Positions 27,621 through 43,212 of a DNA stretch of 48,942 nucleotides are shown piece by piece. The notes under the pieces were generated by a model. It made no database searches. It had not been told where the DNA came from and worked only from the letters and a program-made list of their open reading frames with translations. Where the stretch lies: the IMG/VR virus record IMGVR_UViG_3300031963_000238, positions 1 through 48,942 of that record. One strand, 5' to 3'. This stretch comes from a virus. Every line of letters starts with the position of its first letter. The stretch's first letter is position 1. The translations under genes and the position numbers were made by a program.

Positions 27621-28385
27621 ATGATTTATTTGTCCGACCTACTAAATGAAACAAAACTACCATCAAGTGAGATTGATATGGACGTTTATGCGCGTAAGTA
27701 TTTAAAAACAATAGATTATTTAAAAACTAAGAAAAAAACATTGTTACTCACAACTAGTAATAGATGGATACAACACAAAGATGATGTACCAAAAAGTACT
27801 CAATTGGCAATAAAAATAAAAGAAACTCTTGGAAGTGATAAAATAATTCATCTTGATATTCCAAAATTAAATATTTTACCATGTGAAGGTAATGTTAGTA
27901 GCAACAAGCAATTTGGTGGATATCATTGTGGTACAAAAGACTCGGCATTAAAAGATAAAGAAAAAAATCCTACGGGAAATCATCGTTGTTGGTGTAGTTA
28001 TAACAACAAAAATGATGAATTATGGAAAGTTAGTAAAGAACTTTTTGAATGTGATGCTGTTGTATTTTTTACAAGCATTAGATGGGGACAAGCCAATAGC
28101 TTTTACCAAAAATTAATTGAAAGATTAAATTGGCTTGAAAGCCGACATGCTACATTGGGAGAAAGCAATATTGTTAAAAATATTGACGCTGGATTTATTG
28201 CAGTTGGTCAAAATTGGAACGGTCCAAGTGTTGTGAAAACTCAAAAACAAGTTTTTGAGTTTTTTGGATTCAATACTCCAAATGATTTGTTTTGGAACTG
28301 GCAATATACAAATGACCCGTGGGATGAATCAAAGCGTTCATATAATACTGCACCGAGTGTGTTTAACGAAACATTTAAAATATAA
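27621..28385 (+). CDS. Flavodoxin-like / NADPH-dependent FMN reductase-family protein with capsid-targeting-like leader
   Basis: The core shows a flavodoxin-like pattern: TLLLTTSNRW (about 40-49) as the first strand and phosphate loop, DIPKLNILPCEGNVS (about 83-97), then a strand-loop AVVFFTSIRWGQANSFYQKLIERL (about 150-173) typical of NADPH-dependent FMN reductases. A Cys-rich insert (HCGTKD...HRCWC) may bind metal or a cluster. The N-terminus MIYLSDLLNE (1-10) resembles the leader on other late proteins here. The upstream in-frame ATG at 27597 lies in the terminator's tail and is rejected. Its place between sheath and terminase suggests a virion-linked redox enzyme, which is inference. Confidence 0.75.
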   Translation: MIYLSDLLNETKLPSSEIDMDVYARKYLKTIDYLKTKKKTLLLTTSNRWIQHKDDVPKSTQLAIKIKETLGSDKIIHLDIPKLNILPCEGNVSSNKQFGGYHCGTKDSALKDKEKNPTGNHRCWCSYNNKNDELWKVSKELFECDAVVFFTSIRWGQANSFYQKLIERLNWLESRHATLGESNIVKNIDAGFIAVGQNWNGPSVVKTQKQVFEFFGFNTPNDLFWNWQYTNDPWDESKRSYNTAPSVFNETFKI

Positions 28386-28435
28386 AAAACTTATATAGAT
28401 ATTATGTTATATGTAATAAAGGCTGTTATAAATTT

Positions 28436-29125
28436 ATGAAAAAAGCATCAGGAAAAAGTAATTTAAGCATTGTACGCGATTATCTTGACGGAACTAGACC
28501 ATTCATTCAAGTAGGATATGATGAAAATGTGGCATTGCAAAGTCGAAAAGAAGGAGAAGAATGGGAAGATAGTAATGGTGTTAAATGGGTAAAGAAGAAT
28601 GGATATAAGAAACGTGTAAGCAAAAAAGCACAGTATGTTTTTGAACAACGCTGCACGGTTTGTAACGCAGATATGAAATGGGGAAATTATCTTGATCAGA
28701 AAATATATCCGAAGACTCAACGATGCTATGAATGCAATATTGAATTTGAAGCAATCTTAAAAAGTCGTGGAATTTACAATGACTATGAAAAATTTAAAGT
28801 AATTAACAATGAATTATCAATGATGAAAGATTTCAAATCAAAGATTGTTGATAGCATAAATTACCTTGAAAATTATACACCACAAACAAAAGATCCTCAA
28901 TTTTTCAATGAAGATGGTAGCAATGAAATTTGGGTAGATGACACAGATAGACGCGAACTTGTATTGAAAGATTTGAAAGAAGATCTTGATAAAGTCAATA
29001 GTGGAATCGCATTAGCAGAAAGCGAATTAGTTAAATTAAATTATAACGTTGCGCTTGATCCAAATATTAATAAATTAACATTGAAAAAGATACAGGAAAA
29101 AGAGGAGAAATTGCAAAATGGCTGA
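28436..29125 (+). CDS. Zinc-finger protein upstream of terminase (candidate small terminase)
   Basis: The 229-residue protein has a basic N-terminus (MKKASGKSNLSIVRDYLDG), a zinc-ribbon CTVCN...CYEC (about 78-103) and a long C-terminal helical region with coiled-coil character (about 120-229). It overlaps the large terminase start by 8 bases, the position of gp16 in T4. T4 gp16 is about 164 residues and lacks a zinc finger, so identity as the small subunit is only positional. A DNA-binding role in packaging is plausible. Confidence 0.75.
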   Translation: MKKASGKSNLSIVRDYLDGTRPFIQVGYDENVALQSRKEGEEWEDSNGVKWVKKNGYKKRVSKKAQYVFEQRCTVCNADMKWGNYLDQKIYPKTQRCYECNIEFEAILKSRGIYNDYEKFKVINNELSMMKDFKSKIVDSINYLENYTPQTKDPQFFNEDGSNEIWVDDTDRRELVLKDLKEDLDKVNSGIALAESELVKLNYNVALDPNINKLTLKKIQEKEEKLQNG

Positions 29126-30713
29126 AAAATCATTAAAAGAAATAATCAAAGAAGAGTATAAAAAATGTTTGGTTGATCCGATATATTTCATGAAGAAATA
29201 TGTAAAGATTCAACATCCAATTCGTGGCACAATTAATTTTGATTTGTATCCTTTTCAAGAAGAAACATTAAGTGGATTGGTAGAAAATGATTTTAATATC
29301 ATTTTAAAAAGTCGTCAAATGGGTATTAGCACATTGGTTGCCGCATATAGTTTGTGGCTGATGGTATTTCATACAGATAAAAATATTCGCTGTATTAGTA
29401 TTACACAAGAAACAAGTAAAGAAATTGTTACCCGTGTTCGATTTGCCAATGATAATTTACCCGTTTGGTTAAAAGTGCCCGTTGTTGAAAACAATCGTCT
29501 TTCTCTAGTATTAAAAAATGGTAGTACAATCAAGGCAGAAAGTAGTGCAGGTACAGCAGGACGTTCGGCGGCATTGTCATTACTAATTATTGACGAAGCT
29601 GCATTTATTGATAATATCGAAGAAATTTGGTTGTCTGCTCAATACACATTGAGTACAGGTGGTCGTGCAATTGTTTTGAGTACACCAAACGGAGTTGGTA
29701 ATTTCTTTCATAATACATGGGTTGACGCTGAAGCAAAGAAAAACAATTTTCATACAATTAAGTTGCCGTGGCATTTACATCCGGAGCGTGATCAAAAATG
29801 GCGCGACCAACAAACAGCTTTGAGTGGTGTAAAAGGATCTGCACAAGAATGTGATTGTGATTTTAGTACTACCGGTAACACTGTAATTGATATTCCTACA
29901 TTAGATTTTTACAAAAATGAAAAGGTTAAAGATCCGATAGAAATGCGGGGTATTGATAAAAGTTATTGGATTTGGGAATATCCAGATTATAGTCGTAGTT
30001 ATATTGTTTGTGCCGACGTTGCGCGTGGAGATGGTGCAGATTATAGCGCATTTCATGTAATTGATATTGAAAGTTTCACGCAAGTTGCCGAATATCAAGG
30101 TCAAATTAATACTAAAGATTACGGTAATATGTTGGTTAGCGTTGCGACCGAATATAACAATGCATTATTAGTTGTTGAAAATGCAAATATCGGATGGGCA
30201 GTATTACAGCAAATTATTGACCGTGGCTATCCTAATACATTTTATAGCAGTGCCGATCTTCAATATGTAGATATTGAACGTCAGATATCAAACAAGTTTA
30301 ATGCTATGGAAAAGAAGATGGTGCCGGGATTTACGACAACAATGAAGACTCGTCCGTTGATTGTATCTCGTTTGGAAATGTATTTTAGAGAACGTAGCAT
30401 TGAAGTTCGTTCAGCAAGATTGGTAAATGAATTGAGAACATTTATTTGGAATGGTAACAAACCAGAAGCGTTGCCAAAATATCACGACGATCTGGTTATG
30501 TCATTTAGTATTGGTATGTGGGTGCGTGATACTGCATTAAAATTACGTCAACAGGGTGTTGATATTACTAAGAGTTTGATAAACAACATCAACAAGCTTG
30601 GAAATGCAGATCCAATTTATAAAACTGGTAATTTAACTGCTCAACAAGCATGGGAAATGAATATCGGAAAAACTGGTAATGATAAAAAAGAGTCTTTAAA
30701 TTGGTTATTATAA
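29118..30713 (+). CDS. 17: Large terminase subunit (gp17-like)
   Basis: The packaging ATPase-nuclease: variant Walker A SRQMGIST (65-72), Walker B LLIIDEAAF (155-163), a motif III-type VLSTPNGVGNFF (187-198), and nuclease motif I VCADVARGDGADYS (297-310) with Asp300. HDDLVMSFSIGMW (about 454-466) completes the RNase H-like site. The length of 531 (T4 gp17 is 610) lacks only the T4 N-terminal region. It cuts and translocates concatemeric DNA into the prohead through the portal. It overlaps the upstream gene by 8 bases and is 15 bases before the portal gene. Confidence 0.95.
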   Translation: MAEKSLKEIIKEEYKKCLVDPIYFMKKYVKIQHPIRGTINFDLYPFQEETLSGLVENDFNIILKSRQMGISTLVAAYSLWLMVFHTDKNIRCISITQETSKEIVTRVRFANDNLPVWLKVPVVENNRLSLVLKNGSTIKAESSAGTAGRSAALSLLIIDEAAFIDNIEEIWLSAQYTLSTGGRAIVLSTPNGVGNFFHNTWVDAEAKKNNFHTIKLPWHLHPERDQKWRDQQTALSGVKGSAQECDCDFSTTGNTVIDIPTLDFYKNEKVKDPIEMRGIDKSYWIWEYPDYSRSYIVCADVARGDGADYSAFHVIDIESFTQVAEYQGQINTKDYGNMLVSVATEYNNALLVVENANIGWAVLQQIIDRGYPNTFYSSADLQYVDIERQISNKFNAMEKKMVPGFTTTMKTRPLIVSRLEMYFRERSIEVRSARLVNELRTFIWNGNKPEALPKYHDDLVMSFSIGMWVRDTALKLRQQGVDITKSLINNINKLGNADPIYKTGNLTAQQAWEMNIGKTGNDKKESLNWLL

Positions 30714-30728
30714 GATATATATACAAAT

Positions 30729-32600
30729 ATGCCTACAGATGAATTCAAAGAGTTGAAACAACGTTCGTTGTTTTCAAAATTAAGAAGATTATTTAGCACC
30801 GACGTAATTGTTCGTAATATTGGTGGTAAAAAACTGAAAGTAGTAGACACCGACGAATTAGCATACGCGACAGATCGTAATACCTTACGTGATCGTTTCA
30901 ATCGTATTCGCACAAGTGCTTATAATCAATATAGCCGTGATTTCACATTGAGTTATCAAGCGGCTCGTATTGAATTGTTTCGTGATTACGACACAATGGA
31001 TATGGACCCTATTATCAGTAGTGCATTAGATATTTATGCAGATGAGTGTTTAACGCAAAACGAATTGGGCGATATGCTAACAATTCGTAGCACCAATGAT
31101 AACGTCAAACAAATTCTTCATAATTTGTTTTATGACATTTTAAATATTGAATTTAATTTGTGGAGTTGGACTCGTAATTTGGTCAAATATGGTGATTTTT
31201 ACTTGAAAATGTATGTAAGTCCAGAATTTGGCGTTTACATGGTTGAACCAATTAGTAGCTACAACGTTACCCGTGTAGAAAATAGCGATTTAAATAATAA
31301 AAATTATATTAAATTTCAAGTAAATTTACCAGAAGGTGGAAAAATTGAAGAATTAGAAAATTATCAGGTTGCACATTTTCGTTTGTTGAGCGATAGCAAT
31401 TTCTTACCTTACGGAAAAGGTATTATTGAAGGTGCGCGTCGTGTTTGGAAACAAGTTAGTTTGATGGAAGATGCAATGTTGATTCATCGTATTATGCGAG
31501 CACCTGAAAAGCGTATTTACAAGGTTGACATTGGTAATATTCCACCAAACGAAGTTGATCAATATATGGAAAAATTGATCAATAAAACAAAAAAAGTTCC
31601 TTATATTGATGAAAAAACAGGTGACTACAATCTTCGTTTCAATTTGTGGAACATGGTTGAAGATATTTATTTGCCTGTTCGTGGCAGTGATAGTGGAACC
31701 AGCATTGAGCCATTGAGTGGCATGGAATTTACAGGTATTGATGATATTGAATATCTTCGCAACAAAATGATGGCTGCATTAAAGATTCCAAAGGCATTTT
31801 TGGGATATGAAGAAGATTTGAGCGGCAAAGCTACATTAGCAGCAGAAGACGTTCGTTTTGCACGTACCGTTCAACGTGTTCAAAAATTTATTGTTAGTGA
31901 ATTAACAAAAATTGCAATTGTTCATTTGTATTCACAAGGTTATCGCGATGCAGAATTGGTTGATTTTAGTTTGGAATTAACAAATCCATCGACTATTTTT
32001 GAAAAAGAAAAGGTTAGTGTCTGGCAAGAAAAAACCAGTTTGGCAAAAGAAATGATTGATGCCAAAATTTATAGTCGTAAATGGATTCATACTACTGTCT
32101 TCAATACCAGTGAAGATGATATTGACACTATTAACAATGATATTGTTGAAGATGCAAAACAAGCATATCGTTTGAAGAAGATTGAAGAAGAAGGTATTGA
32201 TCCAGCAAAACCATATAATAAAATTAATGCTGGTGAAGAAGGAGACGCTGGCGCAACCCCTGAACTCGGCGCAGCAGAACCAGAAGCAGCACCAGCAGAA
32301 ACACCAGCACCACCAACAGGTGCAGGAGAAGCTCCATTAAAAGAACGAGATCAAACAGGTCGTAAAAAAGCATCAAATTATCCATTTGGAGAAGATCCAT
32401 TGGGTAGTAAAGAAAACACTCGCCGTTCAAATAAAACAACAACAAAACATCCTATTTCACATGCATACAAAAATAATAGTCCTTTGAGTTTTGAAGGATT
32501 GGATATGCATCTTCGTGGAGATGGTACAAAATCAATTTTAAATGAAAATATAGATTCAAAAAAGAAATCATTTTTGGATGAATCTAATATAATTGACTAA
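30729..32600 (+). CDS. 20: Portal protein (gp20-like)
   Basis: The T4 portal family pattern is clear: FRDYDTMDMDPIISSALDIYADEC (about 77-100), WTRNLVKYGDFYLKMYV (about 143-159), EPLSGMEFTGIDDIEYLRNKMMAALKIPKAFLGYEE (about 327-362) and a long helical stem. The 623-residue length exceeds T4 gp20 (524) by a C-terminal Pro/Ala/Glu-rich tail (about 510-623) that is unlikely to be part of the dodecameric core. The portal is the DNA entry channel and prohead nucleus. The gene lies between terminase and the head-assembly block, as in T4. Confidence 0.95.
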   Translation: MPTDEFKELKQRSLFSKLRRLFSTDVIVRNIGGKKLKVVDTDELAYATDRNTLRDRFNRIRTSAYNQYSRDFTLSYQAARIELFRDYDTMDMDPIISSALDIYADECLTQNELGDMLTIRSTNDNVKQILHNLFYDILNIEFNLWSWTRNLVKYGDFYLKMYVSPEFGVYMVEPISSYNVTRVENSDLNNKNYIKFQVNLPEGGKIEELENYQVAHFRLLSDSNFLPYGKGIIEGARRVWKQVSLMEDAMLIHRIMRAPEKRIYKVDIGNIPPNEVDQYMEKLINKTKKVPYIDEKTGDYNLRFNLWNMVEDIYLPVRGSDSGTSIEPLSGMEFTGIDDIEYLRNKMMAALKIPKAFLGYEEDLSGKATLAAEDVRFARTVQRVQKFIVSELTKIAIVHLYSQGYRDAELVDFSLELTNPSTIFEKEKVSVWQEKTSLAKEMIDAKIYSRKWIHTTVFNTSEDDIDTINNDIVEDAKQAYRLKKIEEEGIDPAKPYNKINAGEEGDAGATPELGAAEPEAAPAETPAPPTGAGEAPLKERDQTGRKKASNYPFGEDPLGSKENTRRSNKTTTKHPISHAYKNNSPLSFEGLDMHLRGDGTKSILNENIDSKKKSFLDESNIID

Positions 32601-32605
32601 AGTTA

Positions 32606-32615
32606 GATAAATATC
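32606..32615 (+). promoter_or_regulatory. Candidate late promoter-like motif GATAAATATC
   Basis: One base off TATAAATA, in the 77-base gap before the 32678 gene; the same ATAAATATC string occurs at 37261-37269 before the scaffold gene. The match is short in AT-rich DNA and weakly supported. Confidence 0.3.
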
Positions 32616-32677
32616 GTATTTAAATCAATTTTACACATTTTTCTCTATATTTATAAAATAACGGAATAGACATTATT

Positions 32678-33544
32678 ATGTATAAAGCAAAACATTCTAA
32701 GTTTAGAAACACTGGGTTGCTATTTGAGTTACTTACTCGACAAGTAACTGCGGATATTTTAGCTGGAAAAGACGAATCACCGGCTAAAAATTTACTGTTT
32801 AAATATTTTTCGCCAAATACAGAACTTGGACGCGAATGGCAATTGTATAATTTCTTAGTAAATGAACGTGCCAAAGACGAAACTCTAGCAGAAAAATATA
32901 TCTCAATCACTTTAAAGCAAAGAGAAAAACTTGATAACAAAAAACTCACTGAACAAAAATATAATTTAATCAAAGAAATTAATGATGTCTATTCCGCAGA
33001 AACATTATTAAAATCAAGTTTAAAAAATTATAAACTTTTTGCTTCAGTTTATAAATTATTTGAAGATCACATTAATAATAAAATTAAGTTTGATATTCAA
33101 GAAGTAATTCAAGCTAGAAATTTTATTAGTGAAAATCTATGCGGTATCAAAAAGAAATCTCCAGAAGCAGAAGAAGAAGTAATTAAAATCTACAAGCAAC
33201 AAAGCGAAGATATTCGTATGTTGTCTTACAAAATCATGGTCGATAGCTTGAATGAAAAATATCAAGGACTTGATCAAAATCAAAAACGATTACTTAGAGA
33301 ATTTATTAACAATATTACTAATACAAATTCATTGAATGTATTGATTAATGAAGAAGTAGAAACTGTAAAGAAAGAATTGACTGAATTGAGTTCACAAGTT
33401 GATTCAGATGTTATCAGAATTAAAATTACAGAAACTGTAAAACAATTGGATAAAGTAAAACCATCAAAGAGTGTCAAAGACAATCAAGTTATGGTTTTGT
33501 TGCTTTCATATGAACTCATCAAAGAAATAAAATCACAAATTTAA
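32678..33544 (+). CDS. Conserved head-region protein (288 aa)
   Basis: Begins MYKAKHSKFRNTGLLFELLTRQ, a start that recurs in proteins next to portal genes of distant (marine-type) T4-like phages. It is almost entirely helical and strongly charged, with long predicted coiled-coil segments from about 85 to 280. A scaffold or prohead-core role would suit its position between portal and protease, comparable to gp67/gp68 in T4, but no direct similarity to those is visible. Confidence 0.75.
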   Translation: MYKAKHSKFRNTGLLFELLTRQVTADILAGKDESPAKNLLFKYFSPNTELGREWQLYNFLVNERAKDETLAEKYISITLKQREKLDNKKLTEQKYNLIKEINDVYSAETLLKSSLKNYKLFASVYKLFEDHINNKIKFDIQEVIQARNFISENLCGIKKKSPEAEEEVIKIYKQQSEDIRMLSYKIMVDSLNEKYQGLDQNQKRLLREFINNITNTNSLNVLINEEVETVKKELTELSSQVDSDVIRIKITETVKQLDKVKPSKSVKDNQVMVLLLSYELIKEIKSQI

Positions 33545-33550
33545 TAATAT

Positions 33551-34048
33551 ATGAATAAAGACAACGTAATGAAAAAAGGCAAAATTATTGTTGGAGGCAC
33601 TTTGCGTGAAAAATTAAAAGCAAAGTTAAAAGAAATCATTCGTAAAAAAATGACAGAAATTTCAACAAGCGGTGCTGCTGGTGGTAGTGCTGCGGATGGT
33701 AGTGCCGGTCCAGTAAAAACGCCATATGCATTTGGTAAAGTAAAAGATCCTACAACTGGTTTGGATGGATACAAGCAAGTTGGAAAACCCGAAACAGGTA
33801 CAATTACTGAAAAAGAAGGTAAGAAAAAAGAACCCGAAACTAAAGAATCTCCTAAGAAGAGTGAACCAAAGCCATATGAGCCAATTGTAAAGCCAAAAAC
33901 TCCTGAAGAAAAAGCTGCCGATGAACTTTCTGCTTCAAACGAAAGACGTAAAAAAGAAGTAGAATTGGTTGCGAAAATTGTATCAGGATGGGCCGATACT
34001 CGCAAAAAAGCTTCAAAAGCTTCAAAAGCTTCAAAAAAATCTGATTAA
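33551..34048 (+). CDS. Lys-rich head-region protein (165 aa)
   Basis: A basic amphipathic N-terminal helix (TLREKLKAKLKEIIRKKMTE, about 17-36) is followed by EISTSGAAGG, a Gly/Ala/Ser stretch, TPYAFGK and a low-complexity Lys/Glu/Pro tail ending in three KAS repeats. Such STSGAAGG...TPYAF proteins lie near portals in T4-like phages from aquatic sources and are probably internal or scaffold components. The ATG at 33569 (MKKGKIIVGG) is an alternative start. Confidence 0.7.
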   Translation: MNKDNVMKKGKIIVGGTLREKLKAKLKEIIRKKMTEISTSGAAGGSAADGSAGPVKTPYAFGKVKDPTTGLDGYKQVGKPETGTITEKEGKKKEPETKESPKKSEPKPYEPIVKPKTPEEKAADELSASNERRKKEVELVAKIVSGWADTRKKASKASKASKKSD

Positions 34049-34059
34049 TAAAGATTATT

Positions 34060-34539
34060 ATGTCGATTAGTTTAAAAAGACTAATAGAATTGGATAGTGA
34101 GCCGCAAGTCAAACAAAATGCGGCTTATACTCCTATTGTTGCTCAACAACCAACTCCACAAGGTCAGGAGTTTAATGTTGGATTAGATTTTACTAATTTT
34201 GAACGAACGATAGCAGCATTTACTGAAAATGCAAAAAATGCATTTCAACAAAAACTTATGAGTTTGGTTGGAAATAAAAAAGTATTTTTGCGTGGTAGTA
34301 AAGGCTATGGTCAGCCAATTAAAGATTATACTGTCAATGTAAAAAGCGTTAGCATTGATTTTTATTATGAACGTTATGTTGTTGTTTTCAAAGATGAAAA
34401 TGACAAAGAATACTTTTTAGAGCCGGGATACAAGATTAAAATCTTGGGTCAGGCACAAATTGTTCCAAAAACACCAAAGAAAAAAAAGAAGGAACAACCT
34501 CCGGTTGTGCCAGTTCAACCAAATATTAATCCTAGATAA
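34060..34539 (+). CDS. Head-region protein with capsid-targeting-like leader (159 aa)
   Basis: The first ten residues MSISLKRLIE fit the M-x-L-K-x-L-[LI]-E leader shared by several late proteins here, ending in a gp21-type (I/L)-x-E site. The remainder has a central beta-rich domain (KVFLRGSKGYGQPIKDYTVNVKSV...FYYERYVVVF) and a Lys/Pro-rich tail. It is directly upstream of the prohead protease, one base apart, where T4 has small core proteins. It is predicted to enter the prohead and be cleaved. Confidence 0.7.
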   Translation: MSISLKRLIELDSEPQVKQNAAYTPIVAQQPTPQGQEFNVGLDFTNFERTIAAFTENAKNAFQQKLMSLVGNKKVFLRGSKGYGQPIKDYTVNVKSVSIDFYYERYVVVFKDENDKEYFLEPGYKIKILGQAQIVPKTPKKKKKEQPPVVPVQPNINPR

Positions 34540-34540: not shown

Positions 34541-35158
34541 ATGAATAAAGAATTACTTGTTGACTGCATTTCGTTTGCAGTAAGCCGAGATGTCATAAAT
34601 GAAATGACAAATAGTGGCGGACCTTTTGTAGTAAAAGGTGTATTGCAACGTGCTAATGCAAAAAATCAAAATGGTAGAATTTATCCAAAAGCAATTTTGG
34701 AACGTGAAGCAGTAAAATATACTGAAAACTTCATCAAACAACGTCGTGCATTAGGTGAATTAGATCATCCTGAAACTAGTGTTGTTAATTTGCAAAATGT
34801 TAGTCATAACGTATTGGAAGTTCACTGGGAAGGTGATGATTTGGTCGGTAGTGTTGAAATTTTAACAACGCCAAGCGGCAACATTTTGCGTGAGTTATTT
34901 AAAAGCTCAATCAATGTTGGCATTAGTAGTCGTGGCGTAGGTAGTGTAAAACGAAAAATGGCAGAAAGTGCAGATGAAGTTCAAGAAGATTTTGAATTAA
35001 TTGCATTTGATTTCGTTAGCAACCCAAGCACACAAGGAGCATTTTTACATCCGTCTGGACAAATTCAAGAAGGTGTAAATACAATTAAAAATCCAGTCAC
35101 AAACAAATGGGATAATGTAAATAATATTATTCGAGAAATCTTAGGAGAAATTAAATAA
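34541..35158 (+). CDS. 21: Prohead maturation protease (gp21-like)
   Basis: The T4 gp21/herpesvirus-type serine protease motifs are present: GRIYPKAILEREAVKY (45-60), ELDHPE (73-78) with catalytic His76, and NVGISSRGVGSV (125-136) with the nucleophile Ser129/130. The length is 205 (T4 gp21 is 212). In T4 the protease degrades the core and trims capsid proteins after (I/L)-x-E sites. The frame is open upstream to 34460, but the ATG at 34541, one base after the previous stop, gives the expected N-terminus. Confidence 0.93.
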   Translation: MNKELLVDCISFAVSRDVINEMTNSGGPFVVKGVLQRANAKNQNGRIYPKAILEREAVKYTENFIKQRRALGELDHPETSVVNLQNVSHNVLEVHWEGDDLVGSVEILTTPSGNILRELFKSSINVGISSRGVGSVKRKMAESADEVQEDFELIAFDFVSNPSTQGAFLHPSGQIQEGVNTIKNPVTNKWDNVNNIIREILGEIK

Positions 35159-35861: not shown

Positions 35862-36347
35862 ATGATCACGTTAAAAAAAATTATTGAAGGAGTTGAACAA
35901 GAATCTTCTGTAGATACTAATGAATTGAGTGGTATGATGGGACAGTCACCTACTACATGGGATACGCCAAAAGCATATGCTCCTGCCGGTGCGCCAGTTC
36001 GAACAAATGAAGCATTACCTTCAAAGAAATTAACCGCTGAAGAAAAGCGTAAATTGCTTGGTATGATTGGTCAATTTAACGAATATCGCCGTGCTATGAA
36101 GATGGCGGATGAATTGAAACACGTTGCTGAAAACATTGTTTACATTGCAGAAATGACCGAAAAATACGGTTTGAATGAAACAAGTGAGTGGTTTGAAGGA
36201 GTAACATTGGAACGTGATATGAAAGAAATTAAACGTTATGCAAGTGAATTGCATAAGATTGCTAATAAAGTTCATCCACAGGTTCAACAAGCCGAAGCAA
36301 TATACGAAGAAATTGGACTAAAGTTAGAAAGATACTTTAATCTATAA
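35862..36347 (+). CDS. Head-region protein with capsid-targeting-like leader (161 aa)
   Basis: The leader MITLKKIIE (1-9) ends in an I-I-E site. A polar linker follows, then a helical domain from about residue 55 (KLTAEEKRKLLGMIGQFNEY...ERYFNL) with regular heptads. It ends with a bidirectional terminator shared with the two leftward genes. The leader and the location suggest a core/internal protein; function unknown. Confidence 0.7.
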   Translation: MITLKKIIEGVEQESSVDTNELSGMMGQSPTTWDTPKAYAPAGAPVRTNEALPSKKLTAEEKRKLLGMIGQFNEYRRAMKMADELKHVAENIVYIAEMTEKYGLNETSEWFEGVTLERDMKEIKRYASELHKIANKVHPQVQQAEAIYEEIGLKLERYFNL

Positions 36348-36350
36348 ATC

Positions 36351-36379: not shown

Positions 36380-36380
36380 A

Positions 36381-36764: not shown

Positions 36765-36767
36765 ATG

Positions 36768-37256
36768 TTATTTATTCATTAATAGTGCGTCTGTAAAAAA
36801 ATTATAAATGTTGCTCAAGAAATTTGGAATATTTGCATTTTTATCAAATGAACTTCCTGAGCGACTAAACACTGCGCCGGGTTTATCTATATCTTCTCGT
36901 TTAGTAAATGCAACATACCACATGGCATATTTATATTCATTAGAATTTCGTGGATTTGCAATTTTTCTAATGGCAAAATGAAAATTTGTTGGCGATTGAT
37001 TAACTTCAAATTGAATAGTATTATTTGTAAAATCAACTGAACTTATATTACTATATACATGTTTAATTGCTTCTTTTATTTTTTCAAGCTCTTGAGGACC
37101 AATTGTATAAGGGCGATTATATCCTTTTTGTAATACAGCAGTCAAATTGGTATCATCAGCTTCTTTTGTTTCAACATAAGAAGATTCAATCAACATATTT
37201 TCCAACAATACTTTTTTGATATATTGTTTCAATGATTGTTTTTGTTTTTCGTTCAT
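36768..37256 (-). CDS. Hypothetical late-region protein with LLE leader (162 aa)
   Basis: The N-terminus MNEKQKQSLKQYIKKVLLE (1-19) is an amphipathic basic helix ending L-L-E, similar in kind to the leaders on rightward late proteins though longer. The rest is a mixed alpha/beta domain (FEVNQSPTNFHFAIRKIANP, YKYAMWYVAFTKRED). It is one of two leftward genes inserted between head genes. Function unknown. Confidence 0.65.
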   Translation of the reverse strand: MNEKQKQSLKQYIKKVLLENMLIESSYVETKEADDTNLTAVLQKGYNRPYTIGPQELEKIKEAIKHVYSNISSVDFTNNTIQFEVNQSPTNFHFAIRKIANPRNSNEYKYAMWYVAFTKREDIDKPGAVFSRSGSSFDKNANIPNFLSNIYNFFTDALLMNK

Positions 37257-37269: not shown

Positions 37270-37405
37270 TAAAAATATTTTAACTTTTGTATTTTTTAAT
37301 TATATTTATTTTACAGTAATACGACATTTCCTTTGTCGCAATAAATATTCTAACTTTATTGGAGTTTCTATAATAACTTCAGAAACAAACAAAGGATAAT
37401 CATAT

Positions 37406-38587
37406 ATGTCAAAATTATTACAAGAAGCACTCGCTGACGCAAAAGCCGTTAAGCGTATTGCTATTGAAAATGCTAAAGTAGCATTAGAAGAAACATTCCA
37501 ACGCGAAGTCACCGGAATGTTCCAAGAAAAAATCAAAGAAGAATTGGCCAACGAAGAAACCTACGGTGTAGGTGATCAAAGTGGCGGCCTTCAAGGATCC
37601 AGTGATATTGGCGGAACTGTTGGTGGCAGCAAAAAGCCATCTGCAAAAGCCCACAAAACATCAACCAAAGTTTCTAAGTTGGAAACTGGTGTAAAATTGG
37701 ATGAAGAAGCCGAAGATTCGATGCATGCTGAAGTTGGTTCACATGACAATCAAATGGAAGCTTCAGAAGAAGCTGTTCATGATGAAACAATTACCAATGA
37801 AGAATTGGAAGAAATCTTGAGTAGCTTAGAAGAAGAATTGGATGAAGAAGGTGAACCGTCACCAGCACAACCTCCTGTTGATCCAATGGCACAAACACCT
37901 GCTCCTGCTCCTGCGCCAATGGCACCTGCTCCAGTTGATCCAAATGCTCCAGTAGCTGCTCAACCTCCAGTTGATCCAAATGCTCCTGTTGCTCCAGTTG
38001 CTCCTGCTCCAATGGCACAAGCACAACCTCCAGTTGCTGAAGAAGAAGAAAGCATGGAAGAAATCAGTCTCGACGAACTTTTGAGTGAAATCGGTGCTGA
38101 AGAAAGCTTGGAAGAAGCTAAGGAAGAAGACGACGACGAAAAAGAAGAAAAAGAAGAAGGTAAAGAAGAAGATGAAGATTTGAAAGAACAAAATACTTCA
38201 CTTCGTACCCAATTGAGCGAACACATTAAAGTCATTGAATATTTGCGTGAACAAATCAATGAAATTAATTTATTGAATGCAAAATTATTGTATACCAACA
38301 AGTTGTTTAAGCAATTTGGATTGAGTAACACACAAAAATTGAGCATTGTTGAAAAATTCGACTTGGCAAGCACAGTACGTGAAGTCAAGTATGCATACAC
38401 AATTTTAGCCGAATCATTAAGTTCCGGTGCATCAACAGTCAAGAAGACTAATACTGTTGCAAAATCTATCACCGAAGGTTTGGCAAGCAAAGCAGTTGCA
38501 TCCACAAAACCATCAAAAGATGTAATTGTTGAAAACACTAACGAGATGGCTTTGAAATTCCAAAGACTCGCCGGAATCAAGAAGTAA
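37406..38587 (+). CDS. 22: Prohead core scaffold protein (gp22-like)
   Basis: The N-terminus MSKLLQEALADAKAVKRIAI...AKVALEETFQ is the T4-type scaffold opening. The middle (about 145-215) is a Pro/Ala/Val repeat region, followed by a very acidic, lysine-poor coiled-coil segment (about 215-275) and a helical C-terminus (LREQINEINLLNAKLLYTNKLFKQFGL). The length is 393 against 269 in T4, the repeats accounting for most of the difference. It builds the core on which the prohead forms and is then degraded by gp21. AAAGGAT precedes the ATG. It lies directly before the capsid gene. Confidence 0.9.
   Translation: MSKLLQEALADAKAVKRIAIENAKVALEETFQREVTGMFQEKIKEELANEETYGVGDQSGGLQGSSDIGGTVGGSKKPSAKAHKTSTKVSKLETGVKLDEEAEDSMHAEVGSHDNQMEASEEAVHDETITNEELEEILSSLEEELDEEGEPSPAQPPVDPMAQTPAPAPAPMAPAPVDPNAPVAAQPPVDPNAPVAPVAPAPMAQAQPPVAEEEESMEEISLDELLSEIGAEESLEEAKEEDDDEKEEKEEGKEEDEDLKEQNTSLRTQLSEHIKVIEYLREQINEINLLNAKLLYTNKLFKQFGLSNTQKLSIVEKFDLASTVREVKYAYTILAESLSSGASTVKKTNTVAKSITEGLASKAVASTKPSKDVIVENTNEMALKFQRLAGIKK
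37860..38040 (+). repeat. Imperfect tandem repeats coding PVDPNAPVA... in the scaffold gene
   Basis: Units encoding Pro-Val-Asp-Pro-Asn-Ala-Pro-Val and Pro-Ala-Pro-Met recur several times (for example PVDPNAPVA twice, QPPV three times), with near-identical DNA at about 37931-37950 and 37969-37988. Such repeats can expand or contract by slippage. The encoded linker should be disordered. Confidence 0.7.
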
Positions 38588-38638
38588 TTTTAATGGTGAG
38601 CAAAAACCAAACAAAAAAATAGATAAGGAAAATATAAT

Positions 38639-40402
38639 ATGAGTGATATTAAGTCATTATTGACAAACAACATGAACCCACAAGCACGTTTGATGCAGGA
38701 AACTCGTCAATTACAAAGTAAGTGGGATAAAACTGGTCTTCTTGAAGGATTGGGCGGCGTAGAAAAAGCCAATATGTCCATCTTGCTTGAAAACCAAGCA
38801 AAGCAATTGCTTGATGAAGCAACTGCCACAGGTACATCAGCAAACAGTGAACAATGGGCAGGCGTAGCTCTTCCATTGGTTCGCCGTGTATTTGCTGAAA
38901 TTAGCGCAAAAGAATTCGTTTCAGTACAACCAATGAATCTTCCAAGTGGTTTGATCTTTTATTTGGATTTCAAATATGGTTCAACTAATGGCGGATTTAC
39001 TGCTGACTCAGCTAACAATTACAGTTCATTGTTCGGTGGAACAGGCAAGAAGCTTGGATCAACTGACAGTGCAACCGGTGGTTTGTATGGTGTAGGTCGT
39101 TATGGTTATTCTATTAATGATATTACAGCAAGTATTTCTGCTGCAACTGGTAGCAGCTTGCCAGCAAGTGGAGTATATTTCACCACTGCGTCATATAGTG
39201 ATGTCGATTTTGATGCATCCTATAGTTCTAGCGTTAACGGTACAAGCAACAACATCTACAAGTTGACAATTAATTTGGGAGATAATAGTAGTACTTCAGG
39301 TGCAAACCCATTTGCATCAACAATTAATAATGCCGACTTAAATGCAGTACGTAGCTTCGTATTCACTGGAACCAGTACAACTACTGCTCCATTGAACGCA
39401 TTCCAAGCTGTATATAACACTGGTAGTTTGGCAAGTCCACAATACTCAGTAACATTGTTCTTCAGTGCATCTTCAGCATTGTTGGCAGCCGGTAAAGTAA
39501 CTGGCTCTGTATTGTTTAGCAAGCAACCAACTGATACAACCCGTGGTGACTTCGAAGATAAGGCTCCATTCAGTGGTACTGGTGCAAATACTGGTATTAA
39601 CGCTGGTACCGATATTGGTATTCCAGAAATTAACTTGGAATTGAAGAGCGAACCTATCGTTGCCAAGACACGTAAATTGAAGGCCGTTTGGACCCCTGAA
39701 TTGGCTCACGATTTGAATGCTTACCACAGCATCGACGCAGAAGCAGAATTGACTGCTTTGTTGAGTGAATACGTCTCAATGGAAATTGATTTGGAAATCC
39801 TTGATATGTTAATTACTGCTGCTCCGGGTGTAACAACTCAAGCATGGAGTGCTAAGATCGGTAATGAATTGTCAGTTAACTTGGATAGTTTCGGTAATAT
39901 GAATAATATTACTTTGAACACCGACGCAACTAACAAAACTGCATATGTTAAGAGCACATGGTTCCAAACATTGGGTAACAAGATTCAACGTGTATCTAAC
40001 AAGATTCACCAATTGACTCTTCGTGGTGGTGCTAACTTCTTGGTCGTCAGTCCAGATGTTGCAACTATCTTGGAAAGTATTCCGGGCTATGTAGTAAACA
40101 CCGATGGTGATAGTGCTAAGTTCGCAATGGGCGTAAGCCGTGTTGGTTCTTTCGCATCACGTTTCCAAGTTTACAAGAATCCATATATGGTTGAAAACGT
40201 AATCTTGGTTGGTTTCCGTGGAAATAACTTCCTCGAAACTGGTGCAGTTTATGCTCCATATATCCCACTCGTACAAACTCCAATGGTATACGATCCAATT
40301 AACTTCACACCACGTCGTGGAGTATTGACTCGTTATGCTAAGAAAGTAATTCGTCCAGAATTCTACGGTAAAGTATTCATTGGTGATCTTGACCAAGTAT
40401 AA
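38639..40402 (+). CDS. 23: Major capsid protein precursor (gp23-like)
   Basis: The T4 gp23 pattern runs throughout: an N-terminal removable segment with QLLDEATATG (56-65), SEQWAGVALPLVRRVFAEISAKEFVSVQPMNLPSGLIFYLDFKYG (about 70-114), and the HK97-like C-terminal core (VSPDVATILESIPGYV, PMVYDPINFTPRRGVLTRYAKKVIRPEFYG). The predicted gp21 cut after Glu60 (L-D-E/A) mirrors Glu65 in T4. Length 587 against 521; extra Ser/Thr/Gly-rich segments at about 160-300 suggest a surface insertion domain. TAAGGAA precedes the ATG. It is followed by a terminator. Confidence 0.95.
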   Translation: MSDIKSLLTNNMNPQARLMQETRQLQSKWDKTGLLEGLGGVEKANMSILLENQAKQLLDEATATGTSANSEQWAGVALPLVRRVFAEISAKEFVSVQPMNLPSGLIFYLDFKYGSTNGGFTADSANNYSSLFGGTGKKLGSTDSATGGLYGVGRYGYSINDITASISAATGSSLPASGVYFTTASYSDVDFDASYSSSVNGTSNNIYKLTINLGDNSSTSGANPFASTINNADLNAVRSFVFTGTSTTTAPLNAFQAVYNTGSLASPQYSVTLFFSASSALLAAGKVTGSVLFSKQPTDTTRGDFEDKAPFSGTGANTGINAGTDIGIPEINLELKSEPIVAKTRKLKAVWTPELAHDLNAYHSIDAEAELTALLSEYVSMEIDLEILDMLITAAPGVTTQAWSAKIGNELSVNLDSFGNMNNITLNTDATNKTAYVKSTWFQTLGNKIQRVSNKIHQLTLRGGANFLVVSPDVATILESIPGYVVNTDGDSAKFAMGVSRVGSFASRFQVYKNPYMVENVILVGFRGNNFLETGAVYAPYIPLVQTPMVYDPINFTPRRGVLTRYAKKVIRPEFYGKVFIGDLDQV

Positions 40403-40429
40403 TCCGTAACGAGATATTAAGTTAAAGCG

Positions 40430-40458
40430 AACCCACGGTATTTCTACCGTGGGTTTTT
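40430..40458 (+). terminator. Rho-independent terminator after the major capsid gene
   Basis: ACCCACGGTA (40431-40440) pairs with TACCGTGGGT (40445-40454) around TTTC, followed by a T-rich run. It isolates the highly expressed capsid gene from the accessory block. Confidence 0.92.
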
Positions 40459-40479
40459 ATTTTTTATTTTTCTATTTAT

Positions 40480-41280
40480 ATGATTATGTATTCAGAAAAA
40501 ATATCACTAAAGTCTTTGTTATTGGAATATTTTACGGAACCCGTTTCTGTTTTAAAAAAATACATTACTAAAACAGAGGCAGAAAGAAAAATAGAACTTG
40601 GATTAAAAAATGATTGCATAGAATTTTTAGCAAGACGATATCCAAGTATATATGAAAAATATAGAAAAAACAATTACGGTGAATCGTCTGAAATGTTAAT
40701 GAAAGAGCATTTAGATGTATTTAATGAATGGTGTAATTTTTTGTATGAAAAATTAAACAGTTATGATTATCATGAATACTTTGACACGGGCTATCCGACA
40801 TGGAATTATGTAGATTATAGATCCATTGTAAAAAATCAATGGTTGATTCATTTTAGTGATACAGCACAAAATATTTATTATGATCAAAGATTTAATAGTG
40901 GAGTAGATGATTATACAAGACTAGGATTAACTAAGCATTTATCCGATGGTATGAAAGATATGGAAGGATATAATTTTGCTTATTTATTAAGTGATTATTT
41001 GAGATACGGAAAGGAACGTAATCGATTCAAATATGGAAAAGAAGCTGTTTTGTTCAAAGCAAGTGGAATACAAGTGTGGCATTTTGGTGATGCCGAACCA
41101 CAAGTAATTTTTTGGGGACCGAGTGCATTTGATATTGTCTATATTAGAGAAGACAGTGACACAGGCGAATATTATGTATATAGTAAAAACAAGACAAGTC
41201 CATTCAGAGGAGAATTTGATGATTGTGTTGACTGGGTAATAAATAATTTTAATCAATATAAACGCATATTATTACCTTGA
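40480..41280 (+). CDS. Putative ADP-ribosyltransferase-fold protein with capsid-targeting-like leader
   Basis: Residues 8-15 (ISLKSLLLE at 8-16) form the late leader ending in L-L-E. The C-terminal part has WLIHFSDTAQNIYYDQRFNSG (about 125-145), LGLTKHL, GYNFAYLLSDYLRYG (about 164-178), KYGKEAVLFKASGIQVWHFGD (about 185-205) and EPQVIFWGPSAFDIVYI (about 206-222). This pattern recalls phage-encoded ART-like/polyvalent-protein domains, with His in LIHF, Tyr in GYNFAY and Glu in EPQVIFWG as H-Y-E candidates. T4 packages ART proteins (Alt) in its capsid, so a packaged effector is a plausible role. The ATG at 40486 is an alternative start. Confidence 0.65.
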   Translation: MIMYSEKISLKSLLLEYFTEPVSVLKKYITKTEAERKIELGLKNDCIEFLARRYPSIYEKYRKNNYGESSEMLMKEHLDVFNEWCNFLYEKLNSYDYHEYFDTGYPTWNYVDYRSIVKNQWLIHFSDTAQNIYYDQRFNSGVDDYTRLGLTKHLSDGMKDMEGYNFAYLLSDYLRYGKERNRFKYGKEAVLFKASGIQVWHFGDAEPQVIFWGPSAFDIVYIREDSDTGEYYVYSKNKTSPFRGEFDDCVDWVINNFNQYKRILLP

Positions 41281-41300
41281 TGTATTCTATTTATTATCAT

Positions 41301-41912
41301 ATGAAATTAACCGACATTGTTGAAAATATTGTTCATCCAGCAGAACCAATGAATCTAATTAAAGAGGTTGCTGTTAGCCAAAATTTAAAATATCATTTGG
41401 ATAGACACTTAACGCTTGAAGAATGTGTATTTCGCAATTATAGCGAAGCTTATTTTAACTTAATAAATGAAATTCGTGCATTATACAACGATGATGCAAT
41501 TGAATTAAATGAATATGACGCAGATATTGTCGAAAGCGATTTGGGAGAAACTGCTGAATATGAAGGACGCACTGTATATTTAGATGCTCCTATTGAAGAA
41601 GATGTTGATGAACAATTGATGTTGGAAGCAAAACATCGTGGCAGAACAGTTAAATTAAATAGACCATTTCGAACTCCCGGTGGACCAAAAAAATTTGCTG
41701 TTTATGTAAAAAGCAAAAAGGGAAAAATCAAAAAAGTAACATTTGGTGATCCTAAAATGCGTGTTCGTGCCAGTAGCAAGGCTCGCCGCAAGAGCTTTTC
41801 TGCCCGACATAAATGTAGTCAAAAGAAAGATCGTACAACAGCAGGTTATTGGAGTTGCAGAGCACATCGTATTCGCAGTTTGGGTACAAAAAGCAAGGGC
41901 AAATATTGGTAA
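41301..41912 (+). CDS. Basic virion-region protein with DUF5872-like domain and leader
   Basis: From the ATG at 41301, MKLTDIVE (1-8) is a leader-like start. The C-terminal 90 residues (RTPGGPKKFAVYVKSKKGKI, then KKVTFGDPKMRVRASS, ARRKSFSARHKCSQKKDRTT, GYWSCRAHRIRSLG) are the conserved basic Cys-containing domain, which I believe is catalogued as DUF5872, of aquatic T4-type phages near capsid genes. LMLE-A (about 112-116) is a second possible gp21 site separating an acidic N-half from the basic C-half. Its charge suggests DNA binding inside the head. The ORF is open upstream to 41277; 41301 restores the leader. Confidence 0.75.
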   Translation: MKLTDIVENIVHPAEPMNLIKEVAVSQNLKYHLDRHLTLEECVFRNYSEAYFNLINEIRALYNDDAIELNEYDADIVESDLGETAEYEGRTVYLDAPIEEDVDEQLMLEAKHRGRTVKLNRPFRTPGGPKKFAVYVKSKKGKIKKVTFGDPKMRVRASSKARRKSFSARHKCSQKKDRTTAGYWSCRAHRIRSLGTKSKGKYW

Positions 41913-41913
41913 T

Positions 41914-41939
41914 ATATGATTAAGCTTAAAGATTTGATT
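41914..41939 (+). repeat. 26-base direct repeat encoding the leader, copy 1
   Basis: ATATGATTAAGC... (41914-41939) is identical over 26 bases to 42267-42292. Both copies contain the ATG and the codons for MIKLKDLI at the starts of adjacent, otherwise unrelated genes. The identity at DNA level indicates recent duplication or transfer of the leader itself. Confidence 0.85.
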
Positions 41940-42272
41940 GACGAAGGTTGGGGAGGCATGCTTCAAGCACAGTTCTATTGGCTTGATAAAAATGGAAATG
42001 CGAAAAAAGTTTCAAGTCACGGAAGTTATGCTAATCTTTTATCAAAAATAGATTGGGACGATGATCAATCATATCAATATATGTTTGATCGTGGATGGGC
42101 AAGAATTTCAATAGAAGATAATTATATATTTATAAATACATCATTGACAAATCCAGTTCACGTCGATTTGACCAAATCTCAAAAAGAATGGCTTAAAACA
42201 ATCCGAGATGAAATATATCCAGCGCAACATTTACAAATTGTAAACATATACCGAAGACCAATAGAAATATGA
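41916..42272 (+). CDS. Hypothetical protein with capsid-targeting-like leader MIKLKDLIDE
   Basis: The leader MIKLKDLIDE (1-10) ends with the I-D-E site followed by Gly-Trp. The rest (118 residues) is a small mixed fold with AQFYWLDKNGNAKKVSSHGS, a DWDDDQSYQYMFDRGW loop and DLTKSQKEWLKTI helix. No enzyme motif is recognised. Its stop overlaps the next ATG (ATGA), and its first 24 coding bases are identical to the next gene's. Confidence 0.7.
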   Translation: MIKLKDLIDEGWGGMLQAQFYWLDKNGNAKKVSSHGSYANLLSKIDWDDDQSYQYMFDRGWARISIEDNYIFINTSLTNPVHVDLTKSQKEWLKTIRDEIYPAQHLQIVNIYRRPIEI

Positions 42273-42292
42273 TTAAGCTTAAAGATTTGATT
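42267..42292 (+). repeat. 26-base direct repeat encoding the leader, copy 2
   Basis: Second copy of the leader repeat, identical to 41914-41939. Confidence 0.85.
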
Positions 42293-42610
42293 TTAGAACA
42301 TTCAAATGATATTGTTTATCACTTGACTAAAAAATCTAATTTATCCAGTATTAAGAAATACGGACTAAAACCAAATTTACCGGTTGATATGCCCACTGAA
42401 GATGAAGGTGTGTATGTATTTAAAACAAAAGAAAATGCAGAAGATGCATTGATGAATTGGTATGGAGACAGATTTGATGAAGATGAAGAATTTGTATTGT
42501 TGACCATCAAGACAGATGGATTGCAATTGTTTTCAACAATGGTAGATTGGGAATATATTTCATACACAAATATACCAGCATCCAATATTATTAAAATAGA
42601 AAATATATGA
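42269..42610 (+). CDS. Small ADP-ribosyltransferase-fold-like protein with leader MIKLKDLILE
   Basis: After the leader (1-10, L-I-L-E), the 113-residue protein reads IVYHLTKKSNLSSIKKYGLKP (15-35), then EDEGVYVFKTKENAEDALMNW (about 45-65), FVLLTIKTDG and a closing WEYISYTNIPASNIIKI. The Y-H-x-T-x-x-x-N-L...I...G-L opening, GVY-F strand and final N-I-I-I strand are the layout of small ART-superfamily domains (for example DarT/RES-like), with His18 and Tyr49 as H-Y candidates. The catalytic Glu is not certain. Coupled by ATGA overlaps to both neighbours. Confidence 0.6.
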   Translation: MIKLKDLILEHSNDIVYHLTKKSNLSSIKKYGLKPNLPVDMPTEDEGVYVFKTKENAEDALMNWYGDRFDEDEEFVLLTIKTDGLQLFSTMVDWEYISYTNIPASNIIKIENI

Positions 42611-43212
42611 TTTTATTAAAAACATTACTATTAGAAAATAATTGGCCGAATGTAATTTTGAATGATAAACATCTTTGGTATCATGGCAGAAGCATTGATA
42701 GTGACGTTTTTTCGTATGATTATGTCGGCGGCGAAAATGCATATGATCAAGAGGGGCCGGGATTTTATTTTACAAATAATTTCGAGGATGCAAAAAAATA
42801 TACAAATTCAAATGGTATTATATTAAAATGTAAAATAAATTATCAAAAAATACTTATAAAAAGCCCATCATCAAATACAAAAGTTAATAAAAAAATAATT
42901 GTTGATTTAATTAATAGTAGTCCAGACAAAGATTATACACTAGAAAATTTTGATGAAAATCCAAAAATGGCAATGATTAAAGCAATAAATGCATATTTGA
43001 AATATGATTATGCGCATGACGCGTATCAAATACTTGCCCGTGATTTTTACAAATACAATCCAAAAGAATATTTACAAATATTGTCAAAATATTATGATGC
43101 TCAATTAACTGATAAAAACATAATGGATGGTAAAAAAGTATATCATTTGATTGTTTACAATCCAACATTAATTACAGTTATTGATAAAATAAAATATGAA
43201 TCTTCCATTTAA
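42607..43212 (+). CDS. ADP-ribosyltransferase-like protein (ART-PolyVal/DUF3990 type) with leader MILLKTLLLE
   Basis: After the leader MILLKTLLLE (1-10) comes HLWYHGRSIDSDVFSYDYVG (22-41), GPGFYFTNNFEDAKKYTN (about 50-67), a strand GIILKCKINYQK and the C-terminal VYHLIVYNPTLITVIDKI (about 177-194). This matches the ART-superfamily pattern HG-S...F...GPGFYFT-x-x-x-x-A-x-x-Y... with the H and Y of the H-Y-E triad. The middle is a helical insertion. T4 Alt and ModA/B modify host RNA polymerase; the target here is unknown. It overlaps its upstream neighbour by ATGA and its downstream neighbour by 17 bases. Confidence 0.7.
   Translation: MILLKTLLLENNWPNVILNDKHLWYHGRSIDSDVFSYDYVGGENAYDQEGPGFYFTNNFEDAKKYTNSNGIILKCKINYQKILIKSPSSNTKVNKKIIVDLINSSPDKDYTLENFDENPKMAMIKAINAYLKYDYAHDAYQILARDFYKYNPKEYLQILSKYYDAQLTDKNIMDGKKVYHLIVYNPTLITVIDKIKYESSI

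Follow-up and report, generated by a model that had tools for sequence, protein, structure and literature searches.

N-terminal leaders resembling the T4 capsid-targeting sequence on proteins of a T4-like phage fragment and its environmental relatives

The window, by which we mean the whole stretch of 48,942 nucleotides analysed here, is a fragment of a T4-like phage that encodes a gp21-type (S77) prohead protease and a gp23-type capsid protein. A preliminary description listed nine proteins in it as sharing an N-terminal leader; these leaders, their bodies and the head genes are as follows.

27621-28385, + strand: predicted cargo, FMN-reductase-like protein with a putative flavodoxin fold (Pfam FMN_red, 0.0059, below cut-off)
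27621-27650, + strand: its leader MIYLSDLLNE, strict register
34060-34539, + strand: head-module protein directly 5' of the protease, candidate prohead-core protein
34060-34089, + strand: its leader MSISLKRLIE, core phi5-x-x-L8-x-E10, not strict
34541-35158, + strand: S77 prohead protease of T4 gp21 type, predicted processing enzyme, ATG at 34541
35862-36347, + strand: head-module protein, candidate prohead-core or cargo protein
35862-35888, + strand: its leader MITLKKIIE, 9 residues
37200-37256, - strand: long leader MNEKQKQSLKQYIKKVLLE on gene 36768-37256
38639-40402, + strand: major capsid protein of T4 gp23 type (phrog_138, 3.1e-69)
38810-38818, + strand: predicted capsid propeptide cleavage site L58-D59-E60, cut before A61
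40480-40527, + strand: leader MIMYSEKISLKSLLLE, long register, on protein 40480-41280
41301-41912, + strand: predicted cargo with a basic-rich C-terminal domain (phrog_7595, unknown function, 7.5e-16)
41301-41324, + strand: its leader MKLTDIVE, 8 residues
41916-41945, + strand: leader MIKLKDLIDE, strict register, on protein 41916-42272
42269-42298, + strand: leader MIKLKDLILE, strict register, on protein 42269-42610
42607-43212, + strand: predicted cargo, ADP-ribosyltransferase-like (PF18760 ART-PolyVal, 1e-4, below its cut-off)
42607-42636, + strand: its leader MILLKTLLLE, strict register

The protease gene was recognised in two profile searches (PF03420, 2.9e-26; phrog_207, 2.4e-49), both run on the frame from 34535 rather than from the ATG at 34541, and an S77 protease is also encoded in 12 of 12 relatives examined. 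The earlier placement of a predicted cleavage site in the capsid precursor, LDE/A at residue 60, was correct: the column aligns with LTE/A of T4 gp23, and of the 70 capsid rows in the alignment 67 have [LI]-x-E (P1' residue A in 58, S in 8 and V in 1), the exceptions being RM378, immuto and one gapped row. The leaders and the capsid propeptide have this (I/L)-x-E cleavage consensus in common.

All nine listed N-termini lie in open frames, those at 27621 and 41301 starting at ATGs within slightly longer ORFs, although two required adjustment. The leader assigned to 40480 is present but does not begin at the first residue, the ORF reading MIMYSEKISLKSLLLE, and the minus-strand leader given as 36768 likewise exists, but this coordinate is the low end of its gene, which starts at 37256 (MNEKQKQSLKQYIKKVLLE). 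The proposed interpretation is partly supported, the likeness to the T4 sequence holding at positions with mapped roles in T4. A strict register, M-x-x-phi4-x-x-phi7-[IL]8-x-E10, was set beforehand from T4 mutational data, in which targeting depends mainly on residues 4 and 7 and processing on residues 8 and 10 (PMC9026906); it is found at 27621, 41916, 42269 and 42607, whereas the other five leaders are shorter (35862, 41301), longer (40480, 36768) or, at 34060, shifted in their hydrophobic residues while still ending at E10. Five of the nine thus end at residue 10, and the others at residues 8, 9, 16 and 19. Nor do T4 Alt and IPI begin with MKTYQEFIAE, as had been stated: Alt reads MELITELFDE and IPI MKTFKEFTST, and it is IPII and IPIII that carry MKTYQEFIAE.

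The sharing of leaders within the window is above chance. A motif search over all 68 called genes found the strict tag in four, compared with a shuffle mean of 0.26 and maximum of 3, and none of 2000 shuffles reached four. A looser any-register pattern, fitted after the window had been inspected, matches 10 of the 68 (shuffle mean 2.74, maximum 9), namely eight of the nine leaders (all except 36768) together with two probably false matches, 29118 (terminase) and 11088. The leader of 36768-37256, matched by neither pattern, is the weakest of the nine; orthologues in loci L003 and L005 keep its IKK(V/I)L.E. Elsewhere the tag is conserved within families: M1, L4, D6, L8 and E10 of the 27621 leader are invariant across 16 aligned family members, and the core is kept in 18 of 20 distinct relatives there, 66 of 72 at 35862, 6 of 7 at 42607, 31 of 61 at 34060 and 34 of 51 at 41301, the 30 and 17 relatives of the last two that have no cut site including fragments and distant relatives.

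The protein at 27621-28385 scores 16.6 bits against the FMN_red profile (cut-off 24), and its structural model (mean pLDDT 66) has FMN-bound 2oys_A as best Foldseek match (E 2.7e-5, TM 0.43); tblastn with this protein and with L266:2497-3393 against the phage collection returned no match. That at 42607-43212 matches phrog_25279 (unknown function, 2.6e-22) and reaches 23.5 bits against the curated ART-PolyVal cut-off of 31.2; a structure for its body, built on a four-sequence alignment, was discarded at pLDDT 36, and because the family match is below cut-off and the model poor we call it only ADP-ribosyltransferase-'like'. Eighteen phage records, 337-378 kb in length, contain relatives of this body. 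As a virion test these jumbo-phage relatives gave no support, the N-terminus of CBB_455 being different, and the CBB paper does not mention CBB_455 in its main text. The body at 42269-42610 has relatives in loci L175 and L336.

Beyond the window, we assembled a clade set of the window and 159 loci picked by capsid or portal similarity without use of the motif. With one random member taken per cluster, 15.2 of the 257 body clusters begin with the strict tag, whereas shuffling gave 0.5 +/- 0.7 (200 shuffles, maximum 3) and internal methionines gave 0.2. The tag core is most frequent at offset 3 (0.061 per cluster, vs 0.0013 in residues 60-120). Altogether 25 of the 257 clusters are tagged, the tag being common to unlike bodies; I2 is present in 22 of these 25, as is a basic residue at position 3 or 5, though not obligatory. 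Counted per called gene, the strict tag is found in 97 of 1910 clade genes (3 in one shuffle) and in 81 of 1388 genes of pattern-selected stretches, genes bearing the selecting pattern excluded (5 in one shuffle), whereas control stretches show no excess (6 of 1382, vs 8 in one shuffle). With the pattern-selected contigs included there are 126 tagged body clusters (BLASTP, E 1e-3), whose consensus is MIKLKxLLxE with no conservation beyond the tag. Among the tagged bodies are proteins of ADP-ribosyltransferase-like, FMN-reductase-like, NUDIX, DnaJ, kinase and Acb1-like type. Searching PDB sequences with the L079 Acb1-like protein gave no match. The tag keeps company with the protease and the capsid gene. 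An S77 protease over cut-off is encoded on 28 of 47 tag contigs but only 8 of 39 control contigs (Fisher p 4e-4; 11 of 39 controls at a looser E <= 0.001), and on three large contigs the distance to the capsid gene is at most 30 kb for 19 of 21 strict tags, compared with 186 of 846 genes.

Among isolates, 262 genes were called in T4 itself (all but one base), and five of them have the strict pattern, compared with a shuffle mean of 0.68 and maximum of 5. They are ipII, ipIII, gp24, gp61.1, which begins MKTFKEFIKE, and dexA.1 in an upstream-extended form unused by the annotation. Of the four matches located at annotated starts, three belong to known substrates of gp21; IPI and Alt are missed. 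Mel-JY01 shows a slight excess (8 of 229 genes; shuffle 3.5, maximum 8), and HTVC008M was rejected as a tagged isolate, having no enrichment (4 of 179 genes; shuffle 2.8). Flavobacterium phage immuto, whose host is Flavobacterium sp. LMO8, is a tag-rich isolate. Atu_ph07 has only two strict tags; a short register, defined after inspecting its N-termini and borne largely by one tandem array, occurs in 12 of 47 called genes of region CDS 31-76 vs 17 of 747 elsewhere. That region accounts for 29 virion proteins by mass spectrometry (PMC6102473), a comparison made at the level of the region. The available portions of the XacN1 and phAPEC6 papers offered no usable information on tagged proteins.

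We consider it very probable (roughly 0.85) that the leaders are modular capsid-targeting propeptides of the T4 kind, cut after (I/L)-x-E. In T4, gp21 removes the N-terminal propeptides of gp24 and the IPs, and cuts core proteins into fragments. By analogy, the short amphipathic N-terminal helix M-I-K-L-K-x-[LI]-L-x-E would use its hydrophobic residues to dock on the prohead core, and the S77 protease (34541-35158) would cleave after the glutamate with the same specificity as on the capsid protein. The freed body would remain in the head beside the DNA and presumably be delivered with it at infection. The tag is modular, joined in T4-like phages to more than 100 bodies without detectable similarity, and may mark preloaded proteins such as the ADP-ribosyltransferase-like one and other host- or defence-directed enzymes.

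A rival account, which we regard as unlikely overall, holds that the tag is a core docking helix plus cleavage site, and that many bearers are core proteins to be degraded or expelled, with a minority injected; it overlaps the preferred explanation, and the odds of the two do not add to one. T4 gp67 and gp68 are core assembly proteins of this sort, and gp21 fragments core proteins in T4. Two of the nine proteins fit: 34060-34539 (98 relatives in loci, 58 distinct; no Pfam family and a single PHROG of unknown function at 0.0072) and 35862-36347 (119 relatives, 74 distinct; no Pfam or PHROG family in profile searches) are both conserved members of the head module that could belong to the prohead core instead of being injected cargo. 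Scaffolding is, however, a poor fit for the 88 of 126 tagged clusters that are singletons in this size-limited sample, and for the enzyme domains in several tagged bodies.

N-terminal amphipathic helices have many targeting roles, and the tag might instead direct proteins to a membrane, the tail, a chaperone or a replication compartment, its likeness to T4 being convergent. A tagged M23/tail-lysozyme protein (L319) and terminase, the latter matched by the loose pattern in the window (29118) and also forming one strict cluster of 2, would suit such destinations. We find this quite improbable given that the tag ends in the capsid cleavage site, goes with the S77 protease, lies near capsid genes, and in T4 picks out known gp21 substrates. 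Because these terminase and M23/tail-lysozyme proteins are unlikely cargo, the motif is, as a sequence criterion, not fully specific: it predicts packaging without proving it. Finally, although hydrophobic N-terminal helices are common and the first 24 nucleotides of the leaders at 41916 and 42269 are identical, chance is an unlikely source of the tag, and chance, common descent or a DNA element at the starts of genes, whether promoter or recombination site, together have very little to recommend them, given the excess over shuffles and internal methionines, its absence from control stretches, bodies that form separate clusters, and varying codons. At residues shared between two tags, the codons are identical in 601 of 992 positions (537 expected); selection is therefore mainly on protein, and a DNA-level element was dropped after this comparison.

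Only a minority of environmental phage proteins have an assigned function. We are inclined to think that environmental T4-like phages share a single modular code for addressing proteins to the capsid, written in several registers, with which they preload proteins for injection as an open-ended arsenal, and that the tag alone reads out injected effectors, including anti-defence proteins acting before phage gene expression. Candidates for this arsenal are ADP-ribosyltransferase-like, Acb1-like anti-CBASS, NUDIX, J-domain, acetyltransferase, kinase, nucleotidyltransferase, metallopeptidase and flavoprotein bodies. If true, one could predict from sequence which proteins a virus preloads: a ten-residue rule based on the positions mapped in T4 would turn gene starts into predicted injected effectors and yield specific testable claims, such as a preloaded Acb1-like protein, and the tags could be used for loading chosen proteins into heads.

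This type of tag is already known from T-even phages, and the open-access literature found on the capsid-targeting sequence concerns mostly T4, with SPN3US, P1 and P22 also represented. The consensus MIKLKxLLxE, its breadth and the extra registers look new. The octapeptides MIKLKDLL, MIKLKSLL, MIKLKELL and MIKLKNLL were not found in the open-access literature searched, subscription journals lying outside that scope. SPN3US and phiKZ have a related prohead protease that cuts after glutamate, and inner-head proteins with removable N-termini, but in SPN3US the motif is A-x-E and several propeptides are longer than 100 residues. The tag of T4 Alt, a packaged and injected ADP-ribosyltransferase, follows the register seen here and has F at position 8. 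In the window, the tagged body at 42607 is ADP-ribosyltransferase-like, with a family match below the Pfam cut-off, and is at most a possible homologue of Alt. A close parallel is with IPII and IPIII of T4, in which unlike bodies also share ten N-terminal residues, hydrophobic at 4 and 7 with I/L at 8 and E at 10, in a genome encoding an S77 protease. There the tag reads MKTYQEFIAE, whereas here the consensus is MIKLKxLLxE and endings occur from residues 8 to 19 as well; and body variety reaches 126 clusters in this sample, compared with at least ten Ips reported in T4 relatives (PMC12373910).

A T4-like head module lies in the window, a 48,942-base virus record of 34% GC:

29118, terminase
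30729, portal
34541-35158, S77 prohead protease (PF03420, 2.9e-26)
38639-40402, gp23-type capsid protein, identical to that of the longer contig G001 (123,688 bases)

The preliminary description had listed nine N-terminal leaders resembling the T4 capsid-targeting sequence; these are real, though some entries needed correcting, and the capsid propeptide site it proposed holds among relatives, with [LI]-x-E in 67 of 70 aligned capsid rows (exceptions: RM378, immuto and one gapped row). The window protease has no insert at its DHPE motif; those of two relatives (L003:4941-6479 and L054, G007 74481-76052) carry there an intein-like in-frame insert that begins with Cys after ...GELDHPE and ends ...GN before SSVVNL.

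Because residues 4 and 7 of T4 IPIII chiefly serve targeting, and 8 and 10 processing, in the portion of PMC9026906 drawn on, we chose the pattern M-x-x-phi-x-x-phi-[IL]-x-E (the strict tag), set beforehand and not fitted to the window. With genes taken as longest open frames (simple in-house calls, not annotation), it opens 4 of 68 window genes against a shuffle mean of 0.26 (maximum 3; at least 4 in 0/2000 shuffles). In the clade set (the window plus 159 loci picked by capsid or portal similarity; 1,978 proteins, 257 clusters of similar post-leader bodies) it starts a mean of 15.2 clusters; 200 shuffles give 0.5, and internal methionines 0.2. A looser pattern starts 30.3 versus 8.0, and the fraction of clusters with the core at offset 3 is 0.061, compared with 0.0013 for residues 60-120, partial overlap of loci being absorbed by the clustering and not by per-gene rates.

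As a positive control, the strict pattern was run over T4 (minus one base), where it matched 5 of the 262 genes called; 500 shuffles averaged 0.68 and peaked at 5. Three are ipII, ipIII and gp24, and gp21 strips N-terminal propeptides off gp24 and the IPs (literature used throughout: PMC9026906, PMC5694885, PMC12373910, PMC6102473, PMC5259590); the others are gp61.1 and dexA.1, the latter through a start unused by the annotation. IPI and Alt are not matched by the strict pattern, whose sensitivity is thus moderate. The hypothetical gp61.1 (NC_000866 18966-19130) starts MKTFKEFIKE, near the capsid-targeting sequence, and judging by this start may be an unrecognised internal protein.

Under a loose core pattern for the leader, counted among distinct relatives with fragments included, the core is retained in 18/20 for 27621, 66/72 for 35862, 31/61 for 34060, 34/51 for 41301 and 6/7 for 42607; M1, L4, D6, L8 and E10 are invariant across 16 aligned members of the 27621 family. 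Low-confidence structure models of the 27621 and 42607 products both have residues 4-8 or 4-9 in a helix. Their bodies look like a flavodoxin-fold FMN reductase and an ADP-ribosyltransferase, respectively, each match falling below the Pfam cut-off. Of interest beside the latter is the ORF at 552-1031, whose start (MIEIIDKNIFEHNAQCIIHQANCHCRMASGVAAQIRRFYPEAV) may resemble a macro domain. Strict tags also lie near the capsid gene: 19 of 21 are within 30 kb, versus 186 of 846 genes, in three large contigs.

Beyond the clade, stretches chosen by a DNA pattern encoding M-I-K-[LF]-K-x-[LF]-x-x-E were compared with those chosen by a scrambled control (at least 120 each, neither sample being exhaustive or random). 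Among the matches listed, 132/140 were start-like (at most 30 codons from an upstream stop, at the head of an ORF that is 50 residues or longer or leaves the stretch) versus 43/118 for the control, and 16/120 versus 1/120 stretches held two or more. Of the contigs listed that are 20 kb or longer, the S77 protease scored above the cut-off in 28/47 versus 8/39 (Fisher 3.8e-4; 28/47 versus 11/39 at E <= 0.001) and gp23 capsid in 23/47 versus 11/39. Length does not explain this difference, the tag-set contigs being shorter (medians among those listed, 42 versus 57 kb). With the selecting-pattern genes removed, listed tag stretches have the strict tag in 81 of 1388 genes (one shuffle, 5), and listed control stretches in 6 of 1382 (one shuffle, 8).

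Pooling the clade loci, contigs G001-G003 and 120 listed tag stretches gives at least 312 strict tags on at least 271 non-identical proteins, in at least 126 body clusters (88 singletons among the 126 from matches listed; BLASTP E 1e-3, single linkage, which can miss remote kinship). Aligning the 126 listed clusters leaves M1 and E10 alone invariant, both demanded by the pattern itself; the consensus among the matches listed is MIKLKxLLxE and nothing beyond, positions 2, 3 and 5 being biased by the selecting DNA pattern. In the clade set, picked without the motif, 22 of 25 clusters have I2 and 22 of 25 are basic at position 3 or 5. Pairs of tags within a locus that have a residue in common use the same codon for it in 601 of 992 cases (matches listed); pooled usage predicts 537, and the constraint thus acts mainly on the protein. 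The adjoining window genes at 41916 and 42269 depart from this: 24 nucleotides (41916-41939, 42269-42292) are identical ahead of different bodies, as if the tag had been recently copied.

Pfam searches (E <= 0.001) of the 126 listed representatives gave, among the best 25 of 30 families and each in one member, PolyA_pol, NUDIX, GNAT, DnaJ, NT5C, SprT-like, GIY-YIG, RNase_T, ART-PolyVal, Acb1, several DUFs, terminase and tail lysozyme with M23; tagged proteins checked singly matched NUDIX, DnaJ, SprT-like, M23 plus tail lysozyme, Zeta_toxin/AAA_33 kinases and PolyA_pol. The M23 peptidase and tail-lysozyme protein at L319:6471-7706 (-) starts with MIKLKHILTE, a strict tag; it would be an unusual protein to package into a head. 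The strictly tagged L079:17177-17713 (-) matches anti-CBASS Acb1 at 34.5 bits (cut-off 27) but 2_5_RNA_ligase2 better, at 47.4. Relatives of this 2H-phosphoesterase occur in L035, L036, L037, L042, L047 and L048; those of L035-L037 start tag-like (MKLLENMLLVE), and those of L047 and L048, which follow an ADP-ribosyltransferase-like gene, have no tag at called starts that may be wrong.

By analogy with T4, a tagged protein would dock on the prohead core, the S77 protease would cut the tag, and the body would be retained with the DNA and injected. Virion data exist for Atu_ph07: the portion of PMC6102473 drawn on reports 131 proteins by mass spectrometry, with CDS 31-76 encoding 29 virion proteins, merely two predicted structural. 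Within this region (placed by CDS order, checked on the paper's gp4, gp5 and gp70), eleven consecutive genes, gp53-gp63 (MF403008 39484-50592), start MKWNDLNE, MRWEQLNE, MRWEQLTE and the like. The 8-residue register M-x-phi-x-x-[IL]-x-E, defined after these N-termini were seen, opens 12/47 called genes in CDS 31-76, largely one tandem array, versus 17/747 elsewhere, and 29/794 genome-wide (shuffle mean 6.0); the comparison is with the region's virion-protein count, not individual detected proteins. YRG(M/I) soon follows the leader in 10 of the 11, and gp53 also has a Zeta_toxin-type kinase domain.

Tagged/called genes under an any-register pattern fitted afterwards, with shuffle value
G001, 15/138, 2.7
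G003, 20/334, 5.0
G002, 20/374, 5.0
immuto, 19/216, 3.9
Mel-JY01, 8/229, 3.5 (maximum 8)
T4 60-160 kb, 8/137, 2.3
Atu_ph07, 38/794, 13.9
HTVC008M, 4/179, 2.8

By these counts the system is strong in certain lineages, while elsewhere it is weak or absent. Relative to the T4 case, the consensus, breadth and registers of the tag look new.
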